Source of the DNA: a virus | IMG/VR virus record: IMGVR_UViG_3300031673_000097 | Span: 1 to 47,036 of that record | DNA length: 47,036 nt | Reading direction: 5' to 3' (one strand) | Shown: positions 567 through 16,326 of the stretch, piece by piece | Position numbering within the stretch: position 1 is the stretch's first letter | Layout: the number at the start of each line of letters is the position of its first letter | Notes under the pieces: model-generated | What the model was told of the DNA's origin: nothing | What the model saw: only the letters and a program-made list of their open reading frames with translations | The model's database searches: none | Made by a program: the position numbers and the translations under genes

Positions 567-837
567 AATAAATTACAAATATTTCCATAGTAAGTTAATG
601 GATCTGGATTATTGCATGCATAAAACTACCGGATTAGTAATTTTCAAAGATGCCACAACTTACAATCAAGAAGAAATAAAACTATTAAACAAACTAAATA
701 AAGACGATTCAATACCAAAAGAAAAAAAAGAAGAACTAATAAAAAAACTCCACGCTCTGAAAAATGTATTCAAAGGAATAATTATAACAGATGAAAAAAT
801 TCAGGAGATAAAAGATAAAGAGGAAGTGAATGCGTGA
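553..837 (+). CDS. Hypothetical phage protein
   Basis: A 94-residue charged protein starting inside the 3' end of the preceding gene (ATG at 553). The C-terminal half is helical and Lys/Glu-rich. No domain recognised. Its stop codon TGA (835-837) overlaps both possible starts of the next locus (ATG at 830, GTG at 834), giving a three-way overlap that would couple translation into the methyltransferase locus. Confidence 0.6.
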   Translation: MARDEINYKYFHSKLMDLDYCMHKTTGLVIFKDATTYNQEEIKLLNKLNKDDSIPKEKKEELIKKLHALKNVFKGIIITDEKIQEIKDKEEVNA

Positions 838-1795
838 GTTGGCACTATTTGCAGGGGCAGGAGGTGGTATCCTCGGAGGCTATCTCCTGGGATGGAAAAC
901 AATTTGCGCCGTCGAAATCGAAGACTACCCTAGGAACGTACTCCTTGCAAGACAGCGAGACGGCCTCCTCCCGGCGTTCCCGATATGGGATGATATTACA
1001 ACGTTTGATGGCAAGTTGTGGGCAGGAAGGTGTGATATTATTACCGGGGGGTTCCCTTGCCAGGACATTTCTTGCGCAGGAAAAAGAGCTGGGGTTGATG
1101 GACCTAAATCAGGACTCTGGAAAGAAATGGTCAGGGTGGTTCGGGAAGTTAGACCAGAATTCGTGTTTGTGGAAAACTCCCCAGGATTATTCAGTTCTAT
1201 TCGAAAATATGGTAGATGGATCGGACCTCCGGGCATTACAACTATATTCAGAGACTTGGCCGAAATGGGGTACTATGCAAGATGGGGAGTGTTGGGAGCT
1301 GAAGACGTTGGGGCCCCGCACGAAAGAAAAAGGGCGTGGATCTTGGCCTACACCAACGGCCAGCGACTCCAAAAAAGGATTAAGCAAAACCCGGTCAAAA
1401 TTAAGACAAGGGGGAACGGATCTTACAGAAAAAATATTAACTGGTGGGATATCGACCCAGCAGACCTACCCAACACTAACAAGCAGTATGATGACCTGGG
1501 GGGACCTGGAGCAAGCAAAATTCAGCAATCAAAACAGACCAAAATATCAGGACGTAAAATATCCGACACCGCAGGCCAGGGATTACAGAACCGGACAAAA
1601 GAAGAGACTCATCAGGAAGCAAAAGAATTTAAACGACCGCTGCGCTACTCAGAAAACTGGCCTACTGAATCCCGAGTGGACAGAGTGGCTAATGGGATTC
1701 CCCGTAGGGTGGACAAAATTAAAACCCTTGGAAATGCACAGGTTCCATCGGTGGCTGCACTTGCATTCATTATTCTCAGTGAAGGACTAATATGA
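830..1795 (+). CDS. dcm: C5-cytosine DNA methyltransferase (Dcm type)
   Basis: A 321-residue protein with the C5-methyltransferase motifs in order: motif I FAGAGG near residues 7-12, the catalytic Pro-Cys motif GGFPCQDIS (Cys77), motif VI as ENSPGLF near 115 (Asn replaces nothing essential; ENV is more usual), motif VIII HERKRAWILA near 165, and motif X LGNAQVPSVAALAF near the end. It transfers a methyl group from SAM to cytosine, probably protecting phage DNA from host restriction. The start ATG lies six bases after GAGG and overlaps the upstream stop. The stop overlaps the start of the small terminase gene (ATGA). The segment is visibly richer in G and C than its neighbours, which suggests transfer. 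It shares nearly all its length with a second open frame at 834-1790. Confidence 0.92.
   Translation: MRELALFAGAGGGILGGYLLGWKTICAVEIEDYPRNVLLARQRDGLLPAFPIWDDITTFDGKLWAGRCDIITGGFPCQDISCAGKRAGVDGPKSGLWKEMVRVVREVRPEFVFVENSPGLFSSIRKYGRWIGPPGITTIFRDLAEMGYYARWGVLGAEDVGAPHERKRAWILAYTNGQRLQKRIKQNPVKIKTRGNGSYRKNINWWDIDPADLPNTNKQYDDLGGPGASKIQQSKQTKISGRKISDTAGQGLQNRTKEETHQEAKEFKRPLRYSENWPTESRVDRVANGIPRRVDKIKTLGNAQVPSVAALAFIILSEGLI
834..1790 (+). CDS. Out-of-frame protein overlapping dcm; WPTPT / LNPEW-EWLMGFP family
   Basis: A 318-residue frame, +1 relative to dcm, starts at GTG 834 four bases after the dcm ATG and stops five bases before the dcm stop. It is not random-looking: it carries FLAQEKE near 80, WKTPQDYS near 113, SETWPKWGTM near 139, WPTPTASDSKKG near 170, and a C-terminal block LNPEWTEWLMGFPVGWTKL with KPLEMHRFHRW. 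From memory these blocks recur in phage proteins usually called hypothetical or methyltransferase-associated. Several are the exact +1 readings of conserved Dcm motifs (ALGNAQVP reads as PLEMHRF), so some database members may themselves be overprinted frames. Whether it is translated cannot be decided here; the 10-base spacing from GAGG to the GTG allows it. Confidence 0.5.
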   Translation: MSWHYLQGQEVVSSEAISWDGKQFAPSKSKTTLGTYSLQDSETASSRRSRYGMILQRLMASCGQEGVILLPGGSLARTFLAQEKELGLMDLNQDSGKKWSGWFGKLDQNSCLWKTPQDYSVLFENMVDGSDLRALQLYSETWPKWGTMQDGECWELKTLGPRTKEKGRGSWPTPTASDSKKGLSKTRSKLRQGGTDLTEKILTGGISTQQTYPTLTSSMMTWGDLEQAKFSNQNRPKYQDVKYPTPQARDYRTGQKKRLIRKQKNLNDRCATQKTGLLNPEWTEWLMGFPVGWTKLKPLEMHRFHRWLHLHSLFSVKD

Positions 1796-2442
1796 AACTA
1801 CTAACACAATCAGAATTCGCCCGACAACTCCACATCTCCAGGCAGGCAGTAGGAATCGCAATAAAAGAAAAAAAAATAGACACGGAAATCCAGGGAAAAA
1901 GAAAATTCATAAACATGGACGGGTATAAAACAATCCAATATATTAAAGCCGATAATTCTCACAGAAAGTATATTGCAAAAACAACACCCTTCCAGGAGAA
2001 AAAAAAAGGCAAGCGACCAGCTAAAAAGAAAAAAGTAAAAACAAAAGTAGAAATAAAAGAAGATTCAGAAATATTAATAAATCTTAGTCCTGAATTACAA
2101 GAAAATAGTACTATAGCAGCAGTATATGAAAGAGCAAGGACAAAAGAAAAACTCGAAATGGTCATCAAAAGAAAACTGGAAAACGCATATAAAAGAGGAA
2201 CCCTAATTGACAGGGAAAAAGTATATAATTCTGTTATGTTTTTTCTGGACCGGATATTTCGCAACATCGAACTACTCAGCGGAACCTTCCTCTCAGATAT
2301 TGGTAATGAAATTATAACCGAAGGAAAAGTAACCCCTGCAATCCGGAAAAGATGGGTTGATGAAATTTTGTCTCAGATAGATGAAGCAAAAGCAAAAGTA
2401 ATCGACCACATTAAAACCATCGAAAAGAAGCAGGCTAAATAA
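1792..2442 (+). CDS. Terminase small subunit (Nu1-like)
   Basis: A 216-residue protein. The N-terminal 45 residues form a winged-helix/MerR-like helix-turn-helix (LTQSEFARQLHISRQAVGIAIKEKKI), the usual DNA-recognition part of lambda Nu1-type small terminases. A Lys-rich linker (residues 65-85) follows, then a helical C-terminal domain rich in charged residues that should form oligomer and large-subunit contacts. It recognises the packaging site and recruits the large terminase. Start ATG overlaps the dcm stop. Its position two genes before a gpA-type large terminase supports the call more than the sequence alone; a regulator with the same HTH fold is the alternative. Confidence 0.75.
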   Translation: MKLLTQSEFARQLHISRQAVGIAIKEKKIDTEIQGKRKFINMDGYKTIQYIKADNSHRKYIAKTTPFQEKKKGKRPAKKKKVKTKVEIKEDSEILINLSPELQENSTIAAVYERARTKEKLEMVIKRKLENAYKRGTLIDREKVYNSVMFFLDRIFRNIELLSGTFLSDIGNEIITEGKVTPAIRKRWVDEILSQIDEAKAKVIDHIKTIEKKQAK

Positions 2443-2540
2443 TGAAAATATTAAAAGAATGTATATATTCAGACGATATTGCAGGAAATCATTTATATTG
2501 CATAAAATTAGAAAATAAGGATATAAAAAGACGTGAATGA
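2442..2540 (+). CDS. Possible 32-residue protein between TerS and a methyltransferase
   Basis: Starts at an ATG overlapping the TerS stop (TAATG) and ends inside the start region of the next gene, so it fills the gap exactly. It has two Cys and a basic tail. No family recognised. Support is limited to the coupled start and the perfect fit between neighbours. Confidence 0.4.
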   Translation: MKILKECIYSDDIAGNHLYCIKLENKDIKRRE

Positions 2541-3180
2541 AACTTTAATATTGAAATCGGATACTTTTTTATTTTCAGAAGAAGAAATGAAACCATTAAT
2601 TAAATCATACTCATTCTGGCAGGATTCTATTCTCCAATCAATAATATATCTTCATATTCCATCGGGAAAAATTGATTGTGATCCATGCTACAGAACAGGA
2701 GGTTTCTATAAAAGTGGTAAAATATCGGTGCCTGAAAAAATATCAGACATCAATCCCATTCACGGTGTCCCTTTTCATGATTGTAGAAAATTACCATATG
2801 AAAACAACTCAATCAACAGCCTGATTTTCGACCCTCCCTTTATTATTTATCCGGGTAAGAATAATTTTAATATAATGAGAGAATATGGAAGTTTCCGAAC
2901 TAAAAAAGAACTTTTGCAAATGTACAACGATTCATTTATTGAGTTTCACCGGATATTAAATAAAAATGGTGTACTCATTGTAAAATGCCAGGATGGAACC
3001 TATGGCCCTGATTTATTTTTATCGCATATCGATGCTGTTATTTTACCTTGCAGAAGGACAGGATTTAAAGAATTAGACTTTTTAATTTTATTAAGCAAAG
3101 GCAGGCCAGAAAGAAGGGATTGTATCCAGAGAAAAGTTAGGAAATACCACAGCTATTTTTGTGTGTTTAAAAAAATATGA
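2533..3180 (+). CDS. DNA methyltransferase (N4/N6 amino type, DPPF motif)
   Basis: A 215-residue protein starting at GTG 2533. It contains the amino-methyltransferase motif IV as DPPF near residue 98 (NSLIFDPPF), preceded by a SAM-binding-fold strand (LPYENNSINSL). Further along, RILNKNGVLIVKCQDG (residues about 137-153) matches the strand after motif IV in class I methyltransferases. I do not see a clean FxGxG motif I; the family sometimes places it C-terminally or lets it degenerate. Likely role: adenine or N4-cytosine methylation of phage DNA, complementing the adjacent C5 enzyme. It ends by overlapping the TerL start (ATGA). Confidence 0.75.
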   Translation: MNETLILKSDTFLFSEEEMKPLIKSYSFWQDSILQSIIYLHIPSGKIDCDPCYRTGGFYKSGKISVPEKISDINPIHGVPFHDCRKLPYENNSINSLIFDPPFIIYPGKNNFNIMREYGSFRTKKELLQMYNDSFIEFHRILNKNGVLIVKCQDGTYGPDLFLSHIDAVILPCRRTGFKELDFLILLSKGRPERRDCIQRKVRKYHSYFCVFKKI

Positions 3181-5144
3181 CAGAAATAATAATCCCCACA
3201 GAAACAGACTCTACTTGGTTAATAGATGCGTTTAGACGCAGACCTACAAAACGCCATAATATAGAAATACCAGAATATTCAGAAACAACAATAATACCCG
3301 CAGGTAAATACACCGGAGCCCAATTCCGCCTTGACCGCGCTCCATACGTACGTGAACCGCTGGAAATGTTAAGCCCAGGTTCAAATATTCAGATAGATGT
3401 ATTAATGTTTCCTGCCCAATCCGGTAAAACCACAATTGGTGAAATATTCGTAATGTTTTACATCGAAATTGTACCCTCCGAGATTATGCATGTAGATTCT
3501 AACGCCGATCAATGCCGTATCTGGTTCAATTCACGTATTTCCCCCAGGGCATCCAGGAAAGGAATACAGTTTAGAGCACAAACAGAGGATACAAAATCCA
3601 GAAGATCCGGAAATACTATGTTTGCAAAAGAATTCGACGGTGGAAACCTGGACCTTGCCTCCGCTCTTTCGGCCTCACAACTTGCATCAAAAACAAAACG
3701 CATTATACATGCCTGCGAGGTTGACCGGTGGCGTGAAGAACTTGGTCCGGAAGGATTAACATGGGAAATTATGTATGCACGTACACAAGCCTGGAGCGAC
3801 CAAAGAAAAATACTTGCAGAATCTACCCCTACCACCTATGAAGCTTCCCTTATATGGCCCCTATATGAATCAGGAGATCAACGTCTTTATTGGGTAGAAT
3901 GTCCGATTTGCCATGAACCCCAAACCCTGGAATTATACGCGGAAAAGAAGTATGGCCTATTTTATGAAACCAAAGCCGGCAAAATTGACATGCGTTCAAT
4001 TTTTTATATCTGCCCTTCTTGCGGGGAATCATGGAAAGAAAATAGAAAGCATCATGTATTAAGTACTGGAGTATGGAAACCACAGGTAGAGGCAAAATCA
4101 CCATATATAGCATCACACCATATTAATGGCATATATTCCCCTTTTCTAACCTGGTGGGAAATTGCCGAAAAACACAATAATATTAATGGAAATCACAAAC
4201 TTCAACAATCATTCGACAATCTTGTAATGGGAAATCCTTCAAAAGAAACCGGGATCCGGCCCAAAGTTGAAAAAATAATCGAATTAAAAGGAATATATCG
4301 TGCCGGCACGGTACCGCAAGGCGTTCTTTTCCTCACGATCGGGGCCGATGTACAACAAGGAAATAAAGGAGATGAAAAAAACCCTCCCAGAATAGAATTG
4401 GAAATCCTTGGAAACGGCCCAGGATACCGCACCTGGTCAATAGATTATATGCGATTTGAAGGTGAAGTTTTTGATTATGCAGCAGGAGCCTGGAAAAAAC
4501 TTCATGATTGGGCAGTAAAAACCAAAATGATCTTTAAAAATAAAAAAAATGAAGAATTTAAACCTGTTATGATTTTTATTGACTCTGGTGATGGAAATCT
4601 CACGTCAACAGTATATAAATTTACACAAACCTGGAATCTAACTTTTCCCATAAAAGGAGCCGGATCACTCAAAGCCCCTGAAAAAGGAGATCCGATCACA
4701 AAAGAAAATTTTACCAGGTATAGATATACAACTGTAGCAGAGGGTTTAACCCTCTATGTTATCGCCACTAATTTCTATAAAACCATGATTTACAACAATC
4801 TTAAAATAAAAAGGACCATGGAAAACATTCAACCCCCTGGATTCTGTGATTTCCCATTTGAATATGGACAGAAAGGGACAAATTACGAAAAATATTTTTC
4901 CATGCTGGCAGCAGAAGAAAAGCTCAAAGACGGTTCCTTTCACGACGGAGGCCGCAGGAATGAGGCCCTTGATTGCCGCGTGTATGCCTTATGTGCCGCC
5001 GATGTTTACCTTTATGGCCTGGTAAAGCAGGTCCGGGATGCTATGACAAAGGCAGGAATGAAAAGGGATGATGTGGACTCAATCAACAGAGGCTGGATAA
5101 TCGAAAAACTAAAAAAAGAGGCCGGATTACCAGAAGGATATTAA
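3177..5144 (+). CDS. Terminase large subunit (lambda gpA family)
   Basis: A 655-residue packaging motor, the usual size for gpA relatives. The ATPase Walker A is FPAQSGKTT (Lys84) and the HACEVDRW stretch near 180 fits Walker B. Two CxxC pairs (CPIC near 243 and CPSC near 280) form the zinc insertion typical of gpA. The nuclease domain follows, with acidic positions in FLTIGADVQQG near 390, IFIDSGDG near 465 and a final DGGRRNEALDCRVY near 600. It cuts concatemers and pumps DNA into proheads. Its TAA stop lies inside the first bases of the 84-bp inverted repeat. Confidence 0.95.
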   Translation: MTEIIIPTETDSTWLIDAFRRRPTKRHNIEIPEYSETTIIPAGKYTGAQFRLDRAPYVREPLEMLSPGSNIQIDVLMFPAQSGKTTIGEIFVMFYIEIVPSEIMHVDSNADQCRIWFNSRISPRASRKGIQFRAQTEDTKSRRSGNTMFAKEFDGGNLDLASALSASQLASKTKRIIHACEVDRWREELGPEGLTWEIMYARTQAWSDQRKILAESTPTTYEASLIWPLYESGDQRLYWVECPICHEPQTLELYAEKKYGLFYETKAGKIDMRSIFYICPSCGESWKENRKHHVLSTGVWKPQVEAKSPYIASHHINGIYSPFLTWWEIAEKHNNINGNHKLQQSFDNLVMGNPSKETGIRPKVEKIIELKGIYRAGTVPQGVLFLTIGADVQQGNKGDEKNPPRIELEILGNGPGYRTWSIDYMRFEGEVFDYAAGAWKKLHDWAVKTKMIFKNKKNEEFKPVMIFIDSGDGNLTSTVYKFTQTWNLTFPIKGAGSLKAPEKGDPITKENFTRYRYTTVAEGLTLYVIATNFYKTMIYNNLKIKRTMENIQPPGFCDFPFEYGQKGTNYEKYFSMLAAEEKLKDGSFHDGGRRNEALDCRVYALCAADVYLYGLVKQVRDAMTKAGMKRDDVDSINRGWIIEKLKKEAGLPEGY

Positions 5145-14763: not shown

Positions 14764-16326
14764 ATGGGAATAATATCTACAAGTAAGGCAGCAGGGGTTG
14801 GATCCTCTGTTGAAAATCAAGCATTTGCTGTTACAGCTCAAGTAGTGCCCAGAAAAATAACAATCGTAGGAACATACGATCCTTTGAAAACGGATATAGT
14901 TCCCGATGTTCCAATAAGAGTATTTTCAGCAGAGGAAGTTGGAGCGTTATGTGGATATGGTTTCATGATTCATAGGCTTGCTGTACAATCATTCAAAGGA
15001 AGCGGAAATGGAATTGAAACATGGATAATTCCACAAACAGAAGACGGAGTAAAAGCTACAGGAAGTATAGATTTTACCGGATCTACTGGATCAGGGGATA
15101 CAATTTTTTTATATATTTCCGGAATTCTTGATATGCCAGTTGAAATACCTCTAAGTTCGGGAATAACAGGAGCAGATATTTGTGCCCTGGTTACTGCTGC
15201 AATTAATCGAATAAAAGAATTACCAGTAACAGCAGTACTTAATATTGTTCCAGAAATTTGTGATATAACAGCAAAGAGTACAAATGTATGGGGTAATGAC
15301 ATTTCTATTGCATTTAACAAAAGACCAGGTGAAGAATTACCACCAGGTGTCATAGCAGTAGTAACTGATATGACAGGCGGATCAGGGACATATGATATTA
15401 GTGATGCGATTGACGCACTTGGTGTAGGAGATAATGCTAATGAAAAATTTATTACTGAACTTATACATGGATATGGTACAGGAGGATTAGATATCCTAAG
15501 CGAATATGTCGGAAAAGGTGATACAAAAACAGGATGTTATAGCGAATTAGTTCACAAACCATTTCAGAGTCTCATAGGTGATGTTTTGGCGGGTTCGTCA
15601 GGATTTACTTATGTCAGAAATATAGGCAACCTCAGAAAAGGAACTGATAGAACTAATGGAATAATATGTGTTCCCGGATCGGTTTCGCACAAAGCAGAAA
15701 TTGCAGCACAAGCTATGGGACATCGAGCACGAATTGCGAACATAAGGCCTGAACAGAACTATGTAGATATAATTCTGGCTGATATTGATCCTGGGGATGC
15801 AGTTGATAGATGGACATCTTATTACAACTTTAGGGACACCGCAGTAAAAAATGGAATTTCACCTACCATTGTAAAAAATGGAATTGTATATATGCAAAAC
15901 CTTGTAAGTTTTTATCACCCTGATAGTGTTCCTGTAAATTCTAATGGTTATGCATCTTTTCGTAATCTTGCAATTATTCAAAATCTTCTTGATTCTCAAT
16001 ATCGAACATTCAACACAGAAAAGTGGAAAAATTTTACGATCGTTGAAGATGTAACAAAAGTTACTAATGTAGAAGCAAGAAAAAAGGCTCGCGATATTGA
16101 TTCTGTTATCGATGAATGTGTAGCTCTAATTACTGTATGGCTAGGATTAGCTTGGATATATGAAAAAAAATATTCAATCGAACAACTCGCATTACCAGGA
16201 GCAGTAAATATAAGAGCGGGCACAGATGGATTTGATATTAATTTGAAAACAATACCTTCAGGGGAAGGTAATATTATGAATATCAATACAATTCTTGATA
16301 CCAGCATAGCGGTATTAAGTCAATAA
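14764..16326 (+). CDS. Tail sheath protein (Mu gpL type)
   Basis: A 520-residue sheath protein, the signature of a contractile tail. N-terminal domain handles polymer contacts; residues around 70-90 contain SFKGSGNGIETWIIP, and the C-terminal domain contains the conserved DRWTSYYNFRDTAVKNG and YRTFNTEKWKNFTIVEDVTKVTN blocks. It polymerises around the tube and contracts at infection. Ribosome site AGGAGG. Confidence 0.92.
   Translation: MGIISTSKAAGVGSSVENQAFAVTAQVVPRKITIVGTYDPLKTDIVPDVPIRVFSAEEVGALCGYGFMIHRLAVQSFKGSGNGIETWIIPQTEDGVKATGSIDFTGSTGSGDTIFLYISGILDMPVEIPLSSGITGADICALVTAAINRIKELPVTAVLNIVPEICDITAKSTNVWGNDISIAFNKRPGEELPPGVIAVVTDMTGGSGTYDISDAIDALGVGDNANEKFITELIHGYGTGGLDILSEYVGKGDTKTGCYSELVHKPFQSLIGDVLAGSSGFTYVRNIGNLRKGTDRTNGIICVPGSVSHKAEIAAQAMGHRARIANIRPEQNYVDIILADIDPGDAVDRWTSYYNFRDTAVKNGISPTIVKNGIVYMQNLVSFYHPDSVPVNSNGYASFRNLAIIQNLLDSQYRTFNTEKWKNFTIVEDVTKVTNVEARKKARDIDSVIDECVALITVWLGLAWIYEKKYSIEQLALPGAVNIRAGTDGFDINLKTIPSGEGNIMNINTILDTSIAVLSQ

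Follow-up and report, generated by a model that had tools for sequence, protein, structure and literature searches.

Two same-strand overlapping frames at a phage dcm locus as a putative two-polypeptide C5-cytosine DNA methyltransferase

The locus and its two frames

The window referred to below is the whole stretch of DNA that was analysed, that is, the 47,036 nucleotides of the IMG/VR virus record IMGVR_UViG_3300031673_000097. Near its beginning, on the plus strand, lies a frame with an ATG start (f1; 830-1795) whose 321-residue product is the predicted catalytic subunit of a C5-cytosine DNA methyltransferase. This protein is recognized as a C-5 cytosine-specific DNA methylase by Pfam (PF00145, E 5.5e-36), matches phrog_363 (E 4.8e-66), and is aligned by profile with M.HhaI over residues 3-170. 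The marks of such enzymes can be read directly from its sequence, these being motif I (LFAGAGGG, 845-868; near-invariant in the f1 alignment), the PC-containing motif IV with the catalytic cysteine (GGFPCQ, 1046-1063; GGFPC invariant), the ENV-like motif VI (ENSPG, 1172-1186; E115 and N116 invariant), the HxRxR motif VIII (HERKRAW, 1319-1339; H164, R166, R168, and W170 invariant), and the GNxxVP motif X (LGNAQVP, 1727-1747; GN.QVP nearly invariant). A motif IX was not recognized in the f1 polypeptide, as the profile for this motif matches the +1 frame only in 247 of 262 loci. Between motifs VIII and X, f1 is poorly conserved in the alignment, and its AF2 model is ordered to about residue 182 and again from about residue 302, with an ordered C-terminal helix and pLDDT values below 50 at residues 183-274 and 277-301; codons ~183-274 are predicted to be disordered.

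The second frame (f2; 834-1790, plus strand) begins with GTG, lies at +1 of f1, and encodes 318 residues of a proposed specificity (beta) subunit. Both frames had been singled out in an earlier sequence-only reading of this DNA, and our ORF check recovered them along with each of the f2 blocks quoted there, namely WPTPTASD (f2 residues 171-178), LNPEWTEWLMGFP (278-290), and KPLEMHRF (297-304). Along f2 we distinguish a conserved block, LYSETWPKWGTMQDGECWEL (1242-1301), situated over f1 codons ~137-156, followed by a putative target-recognition region with PTPxAxD repeats (1344-1583), in which f2 is the constrained frame and whose repeats read WPTPTASD (1344-1367) and YPTPQARD (1560-1583). Farther downstream, profile matches and hhalign point to a motif IX equivalent, LNPEWTEWLMGFPVGW (1665-1712), at which f1 reads RVDRVANGIPRRVD.

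Upstream of the two starts is a Shine-Dalgarno-like GAGG (820-823, plus strand, as read from the sequence), placed 6 nt 5' of ATG 830 and 10 nt 5' of GTG 834, and the TGA stop (835-837) of an upstream ORF on the same strand (553-837) overlaps the start pair, such that translational coupling is possible. The next gene (1792-2442, plus strand), whose ATG overlaps the f1 stop, is terminase small subunit-like (phrog_57, E 2e-5). The GC content of the dcm gene is 49%, as against 36% for the genome. A second and different DNA methyltransferase (2533-3180; phrog_24333, E 1.6e-44) is found between the small-subunit-like gene and the large terminase gene (3177-5144), so that the small-subunit gene is flanked by two methyltransferases. 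No restriction enzyme was seen among the scanned neighbouring genes of the window. Since the window also encodes a tail sheath protein (14764-16326; phrog_165, E 7.5e-53), the phage has a contractile tail.

Selection on the second frame

Relatives were gathered from IMG/VR (76 loci fetched with f2, 22 with f1, and then 80 with an f2 alignment), from GTDB genomes (80 loci), and with an f1 alignment (80 loci), some contigs recurring between these sets. Phage and plasmid records add Acinetobacter, Salmonella, Klebsiella, Microcystis, and Vibrio phages as well as Leptospira plasmids. Altogether, the C-terminal block of f2 was found in 262 loci, and in the 247 mentioned above it lies at +1 of the catalytic domain, motif X being read in f1.

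To be weighed against a coding role is the view that f2 is a non-coding shadow, open and conserved only by way of f1, and that f2-like database entries are artefacts of overprinting. In keeping with this, neither Pfam nor NCBIfam has a model that matches f2, every f2 locus in IMG/VR and GTDB with enough contig sits on a dcm gene, and part of the f2 similarity must stem from f1. However, when the synonymous codons of f1 were permuted with its protein and codon usage preserved, the +1 frame over 833-1789 was expected to hold 6.7 stops and holds none, and not one of 20,000 shuffles was stop-free. For comparison, the +1 frames of fifteen other long genes in the window contain 13-73 stops, matching expectation, and their longest open +1 run is 87 codons. 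Among the core loci, 11 stops were observed at +1 of f1 codons 1-310 against ~330 expected (4, 2, 0, 0, 0, and 5 in six successive f1 regions, with 47, 55, 60, 70, 35, and 64 expected), while the +2 frame is without such depletion. Fetching loci by an f2 pattern retains f2 by construction, and this selection bias was controlled by a second stop test on relatives retrieved with f1 only. These 91 non-redundant loci have 17 stops in the +1 frame against 468 expected, 85 of them are free of any +1 stop, and the other frames are not depleted. Where dcm loci lack a full f2, there is little or no depletion over the whole gene (12 stops against 13.0 expected in L061; 8 against 9.7 in L076).

The substitution pattern between close pairs is likewise hard to reconcile with a mere shadow. 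In flanking genes, the differences at codon positions 1, 2, and 3 of their own frame are 0.088, 0.062, and 0.303, and in the N-terminal part of f1 they are 0.074, 0.033, and 0.184. From motif VIII to motif IX, the values in f1 numbering become 0.304, 0.086, and 0.082, which in f2 numbering are 0.086, 0.082, and 0.304. The full-length class taken alone gives 0.328, 0.095, and 0.092 for f1 positions 1, 2, and 3 (that is, f2 positions 3, 1, and 2) in the recognition region, where the ratio of f1 position 1 to position 3 has a 95% CI of 3.0-4.4 and 51 of 52 untied pairs agree (56 pairs counted, with poorly aligned windows filtered out). Because the differences fall mostly on f1 position 1, the wobble position of f2, the protein preserved in the recognition region is that of f2, and f1, barely conserved there, drifts. 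In L077, the nearest of the f1-found relatives of the window, identity across this region is 58/110 for f2 and 44/106 for f1.

Synonymous choice in f1 was also examined. For shared f1 residues, use of the same codon exceeds expectation, by 1.2-1.4x in the N-terminal part, 1.9x under SETWPKWG (1.87x for codons 136-150), and 2.2-2.5x at the motif IX block (2.47x under WLMGFPVGWTKL). The excess is highest precisely under conserved f2 residues, where third bases are near-fixed, with C in 100% at f1 A144 and G in 98% at f1 G147. The N-terminal half of f2 is less constrained and f1 dominates there, codons 61-90 appearing nearly free in f2 apart from stops. Purifying selection is thus found in both frames, for f1 in the codon pattern of its N-terminal part and for f2 in the stop depletion and the reversal of codon positions.

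The beginning of f2 is conserved as well. Its ATG stands exactly 4 nt after the aligned f1 start in 178 of the 208 loci with a full-length f2, and 10 more have GTG at this place, as does the window. The usual context is NTG-AATGAG, read as *-MS in f2, and an SD-like 4-mer precedes 150 of the 178 ATG starts; at some loci f1 starts 9 nt further upstream, which places the SD of f2 inside the first f1 codons. In 73 of 171 loci, the stop lying directly before the f2 start closes an upstream ORF of 40 codons or more, versus 50 of 342 for the other two frames. This enrichment supports the earlier proposal that the start pair is tied to an upstream stop, and it would suit translational coupling.

Recognition region, motif IX, and rearranged relatives

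The best-conserved block of f2, GG.LNPxWVEWLMGWPIGWTDL, lies toward its C-terminal end. A profile of this end matches the motif IX position of two fused enzymes, MidnightRain gp84 and Graduation gp47, and also matches the split subunits Rebeuca gp79, Backyardigan gp73, and PrincessTrina gp82, which moreover carry PTPTxxD repeats akin to those of f2. With hhalign, f2 residues 160-318 align to these proteins with a probability of 97% (E 2.7e-11). On sequence grounds, then, the LNPxWVEWLMGWPIGW block of f2 is homologous to canonical motif IX. The sequence-only reading had treated f2 as a second, separate family, a description that does not hold, for its C-terminal half is the recognition region plus motif IX that f1 lacks, a part of one and the same enzyme.

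Across relatives of the locus, these parts occur in a single fused frame, as neighbouring split genes, or with motif X relocated to f2. In L089 (a viral contig) and L187 (a Spirochaetia MAG), f1 ends just after motif VIII and its frame is then full of stops, and f2 continues intact through the recognition region, motif IX, and motif X. Gordonia phage GordDuk1 has this same layout. On the catalytic-domain tree, L089 and L187 belong to different parts, and most full-length overlaps fall within one well-supported part (100/99). Losses or shorter forms occur; the full-length class is clustered but needs several changes. Recognition/motif IX proteins of the f2 type that lie largely off the catalytic gene are those of the Mycobacterium phages Rebeuca (gp79) and Backyardigan (gp73) and of Arthrobacter phage PrincessTrina (gp82), and in Graduation gp47 and MidnightRain gp84 these parts are fused in one frame with the catalytic part. 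Among the IMG/VR and GTDB loci with the motif IX block, no standalone f2 was found, and the six that lack a catalytic domain comprise five contig ends and one apparent chimera (L229).

A frame kept intact where f1 is broken, with homologues off the catalytic frame, is not what a shadow would leave, and together with the stop counts and substitution pattern this makes the shadow view scarcely credible. Overprinting as an artefact is therefore rejected as the explanation of f2, and the comparisons across relatives confirm f2 as a real coding gene under selection. The sequence-only reading had named, as what would refute it, stops or no constraint in f2 of close relatives together with a lack of standalone homologues; neither was seen, for f2 is open and constrained in relatives, and homologues largely off the catalytic gene exist. 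Its further suggestion that both proteins are made draws strong support at the level of selection from the stops, the codon positions, and the start, and for production in cells it stays at what these patterns would imply.

A few loci depart from the common forms in other ways. In L229 (3600-4350), a dual-frame dcm gene lacks its catalytic part, and a PAPS-reductase-like ORF leads into the remaining 3' half, as an assembly chimera or a recombination scar. Two dual-frame dcm loci stand in tandem in L325 (2001-3442), the upstream copy bearing PTPxA repeats and an LNPxF..LMG block of its own at +1. At L026 (1096-2102) and L347 (2001-2900), f1 and f2 apparently swap frames within the gene, one ORF beginning as f1 and ending as f2, which may reflect an indel from sequencing or decay of the copy. 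In L078 and L088, the end of the gene is broken up by an HNH ORF. Both frames resume downstream of it in L088, with the +1 relation kept, and in L078 motif X was not found by profile beside motif IX. Rfam gave no group I or II intron or known RNA at either interruption. The arrangement is similar to 'ShiLan', a hidden HNH insertion described for a phage methylase (PMC11855218).

At the other end of f2, the N-terminal ~130 residues match only phrog_1008-type families. The protein as a whole matches phrog_1008 and short PHROG families, and all 30 aligned f2 members match phrog_1008. By sequence search, no solved structure related to f2 was found. AF2 models f2 poorly on its own (mean pLDDT 49.7), with only the motif IX end reaching 70-84; while this would be compatible with a subunit that folds on its partner, it proves nothing. 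That the N-terminal part has no other matches lends something to the idea of f2 as a real protein with a role other than methyltransferase, for example a regulator or an anti-restriction factor. We regard this as very improbable, given that fused and split C5 enzymes have, in their recognition/motif IX part, a homologue of the f2 C-terminal half, that f1 is without this part, and that motif X can move into f2. Tentatively, and with rather less than even confidence, we suggest that the N-terminal ~130 residues, which lie over the most conserved catalytic part, are a newly evolved domain with a separate function, such as anchoring f2 to f1 or acting on the host. Since f1 is an unconstrained linker beneath the recognition region, the overlap may also leave that part of f2 room to diversify.

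The proposed enzyme and its place among methyltransferases

From the motif IX homology, the layouts of L089, L187, and GordDuk1, and the disordered stretch of f1, we take f2 to be the recognition/motif IX subunit. The locus as a whole is then very probably that of a two-polypeptide C5-cytosine DNA methyltransferase, with its subunits overlaid in two same-strand frames. Here, f1 would be the catalytic subunit, contributing the SAM-binding and catalytic motifs I-VIII and the C-terminal motif X, and f2, started independently 4 nt downstream, would be the specificity subunit, with the recognition region and motif IX in its C-terminal half. Presumably they assemble into a single phage-DNA-modifying enzyme, and we infer that both would be made in infected cells, bind each other, and both be needed for methylation.

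A different route to the same parts would be programmed +1 frameshifting near motif VIII, by which the C-terminal half of f2 would be made as part of a fused catalytic-plus-recognition protein. The order in the fused Graduation gp47 and MidnightRain gp84 (catalytic part, PTPT repeats, motif IX, motif X) is what such a product would have, and a single +1 shift would recreate it in L089, L187, and GordDuk1. Nonetheless, an f2 that is open, with a conserved ATG/GTG start and an SD at the beginning of the gene, is unneeded for frameshifting, and in the main class motif X is back in f1, so that a second shift would be required. We thus judge frameshifting improbable and favour two separately started subunits. 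As to their origin, a fused enzyme may have been split by a frame change near motif VIII, as in the actinophage pairs with beta in +1, after which the second gene may have grown upstream until it covered the catalytic gene, and the catalytic frame may, in most lineages, have lengthened downstream across the recognition region as far as motif X.

Two known enzymes in two polypeptides offer comparison, M.EcoHK31I (target YGGCCR; small subunit of ~176 aa) and M.AquI (target CYCGRG). Lee, Kam and Shaw reportedly found in 1995 that the large gene of M.EcoHK31I contains the small subunit in an alternative frame, and both polypeptides are said to be needed in vitro. M.EcoHK31I is a precedent for a small subunit holding motif IX. 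As summarised in PMC3404938, the large subunit of M.EcoHK31I has motifs I-VIII and X and a predicted target-recognition domain, with motif IX only in the small one, and M.AquI has motifs I-VIII in one chain and the distal recognition region, IX, and X in the other. The motif split of the window locus (I-VIII plus X, and IX) is hence like that of M.EcoHK31I, but the predicted recognition region of M.EcoHK31I is put in the large subunit by PMC3404938, whereas ours would be in f2. The second frame reported inside the large gene of M.EcoHK31I is also alike, f2 being at +1 in f1 in the window and in 247 loci; here, though, the second frame covers practically the whole gene (318 of 321 codons) from a start 4 nt behind that of f1, and the window locus is phage-borne. 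With M.AquI the likeness is in having the catalytic motifs in one chain and the recognition region with motif IX in the other, while motif X is in the M.AquI small subunit and, in the window, in f1. L089, L187, and GordDuk1 share the arrangement of M.AquI, and in them the second frame overlaps the catalytic gene.

Closer in sequence organization are the split actinophage pairs, Rebeuca gp80/79, Backyardigan gp74/73, and PrincessTrina gp81/82, in each of which a catalytic protein is followed by a recognition protein with PTPTxxD repeats and motif IX. They differ in that their overlap is only tens of bases and the second gene carries motif X. The monomeric Graduation gp47, MidnightRain gp84, and M.HhaI share the same catalytic motifs but have IX, X, and all others in one frame. 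New in the present case are the near-complete overlap, the recognition region in f2, the phage-wide spread, and the absence of f2 from Pfam and NCBIfam.

Annotation and wider meaning

PHROGs places f1 (phrog_363) and f2 (phrog_1008) in separate families, both labelled DNA methyltransferase, and among the records inspected both frames at full length are never annotated together. Genome annotation usually omits f2. The earlier suspicion of a database artefact is partly apt as regards annotation, f1 being deposited in some phages and f2 in others, and fails for f2 itself, which is under selection. GenBank has the f2 frame only, with the catalytic f1 left out, in Vibrio phage 1.236.O (NVP1236O_59; L274, 1501-2199) and in Stenotrophomonas phage SOVA965 (L101, 1788-2288). 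Among the papers searched, none on this phage arrangement was found, and the passages searched in a systematic review of overlapping genes in viruses do not name the pair.

It follows that many phage 'dcm' genes are annotated with the catalytic half only, or the recognition half only, and that attempts to clone or express such an ORF by itself should be expected to fail. With an overlap exceeding 300 codons on one strand, and both frames conserved across many phyla in hundreds of phage and prophage loci, the pair would rank among the larger and more widespread examples of dual coding known from DNA viruses, the products in this case being putatively the halves of one enzyme. Moreover, with the parts fused, split, or overlapped, and with motif X in either frame, these loci would form a natural series for the study of how overlapping gene pairs originate.
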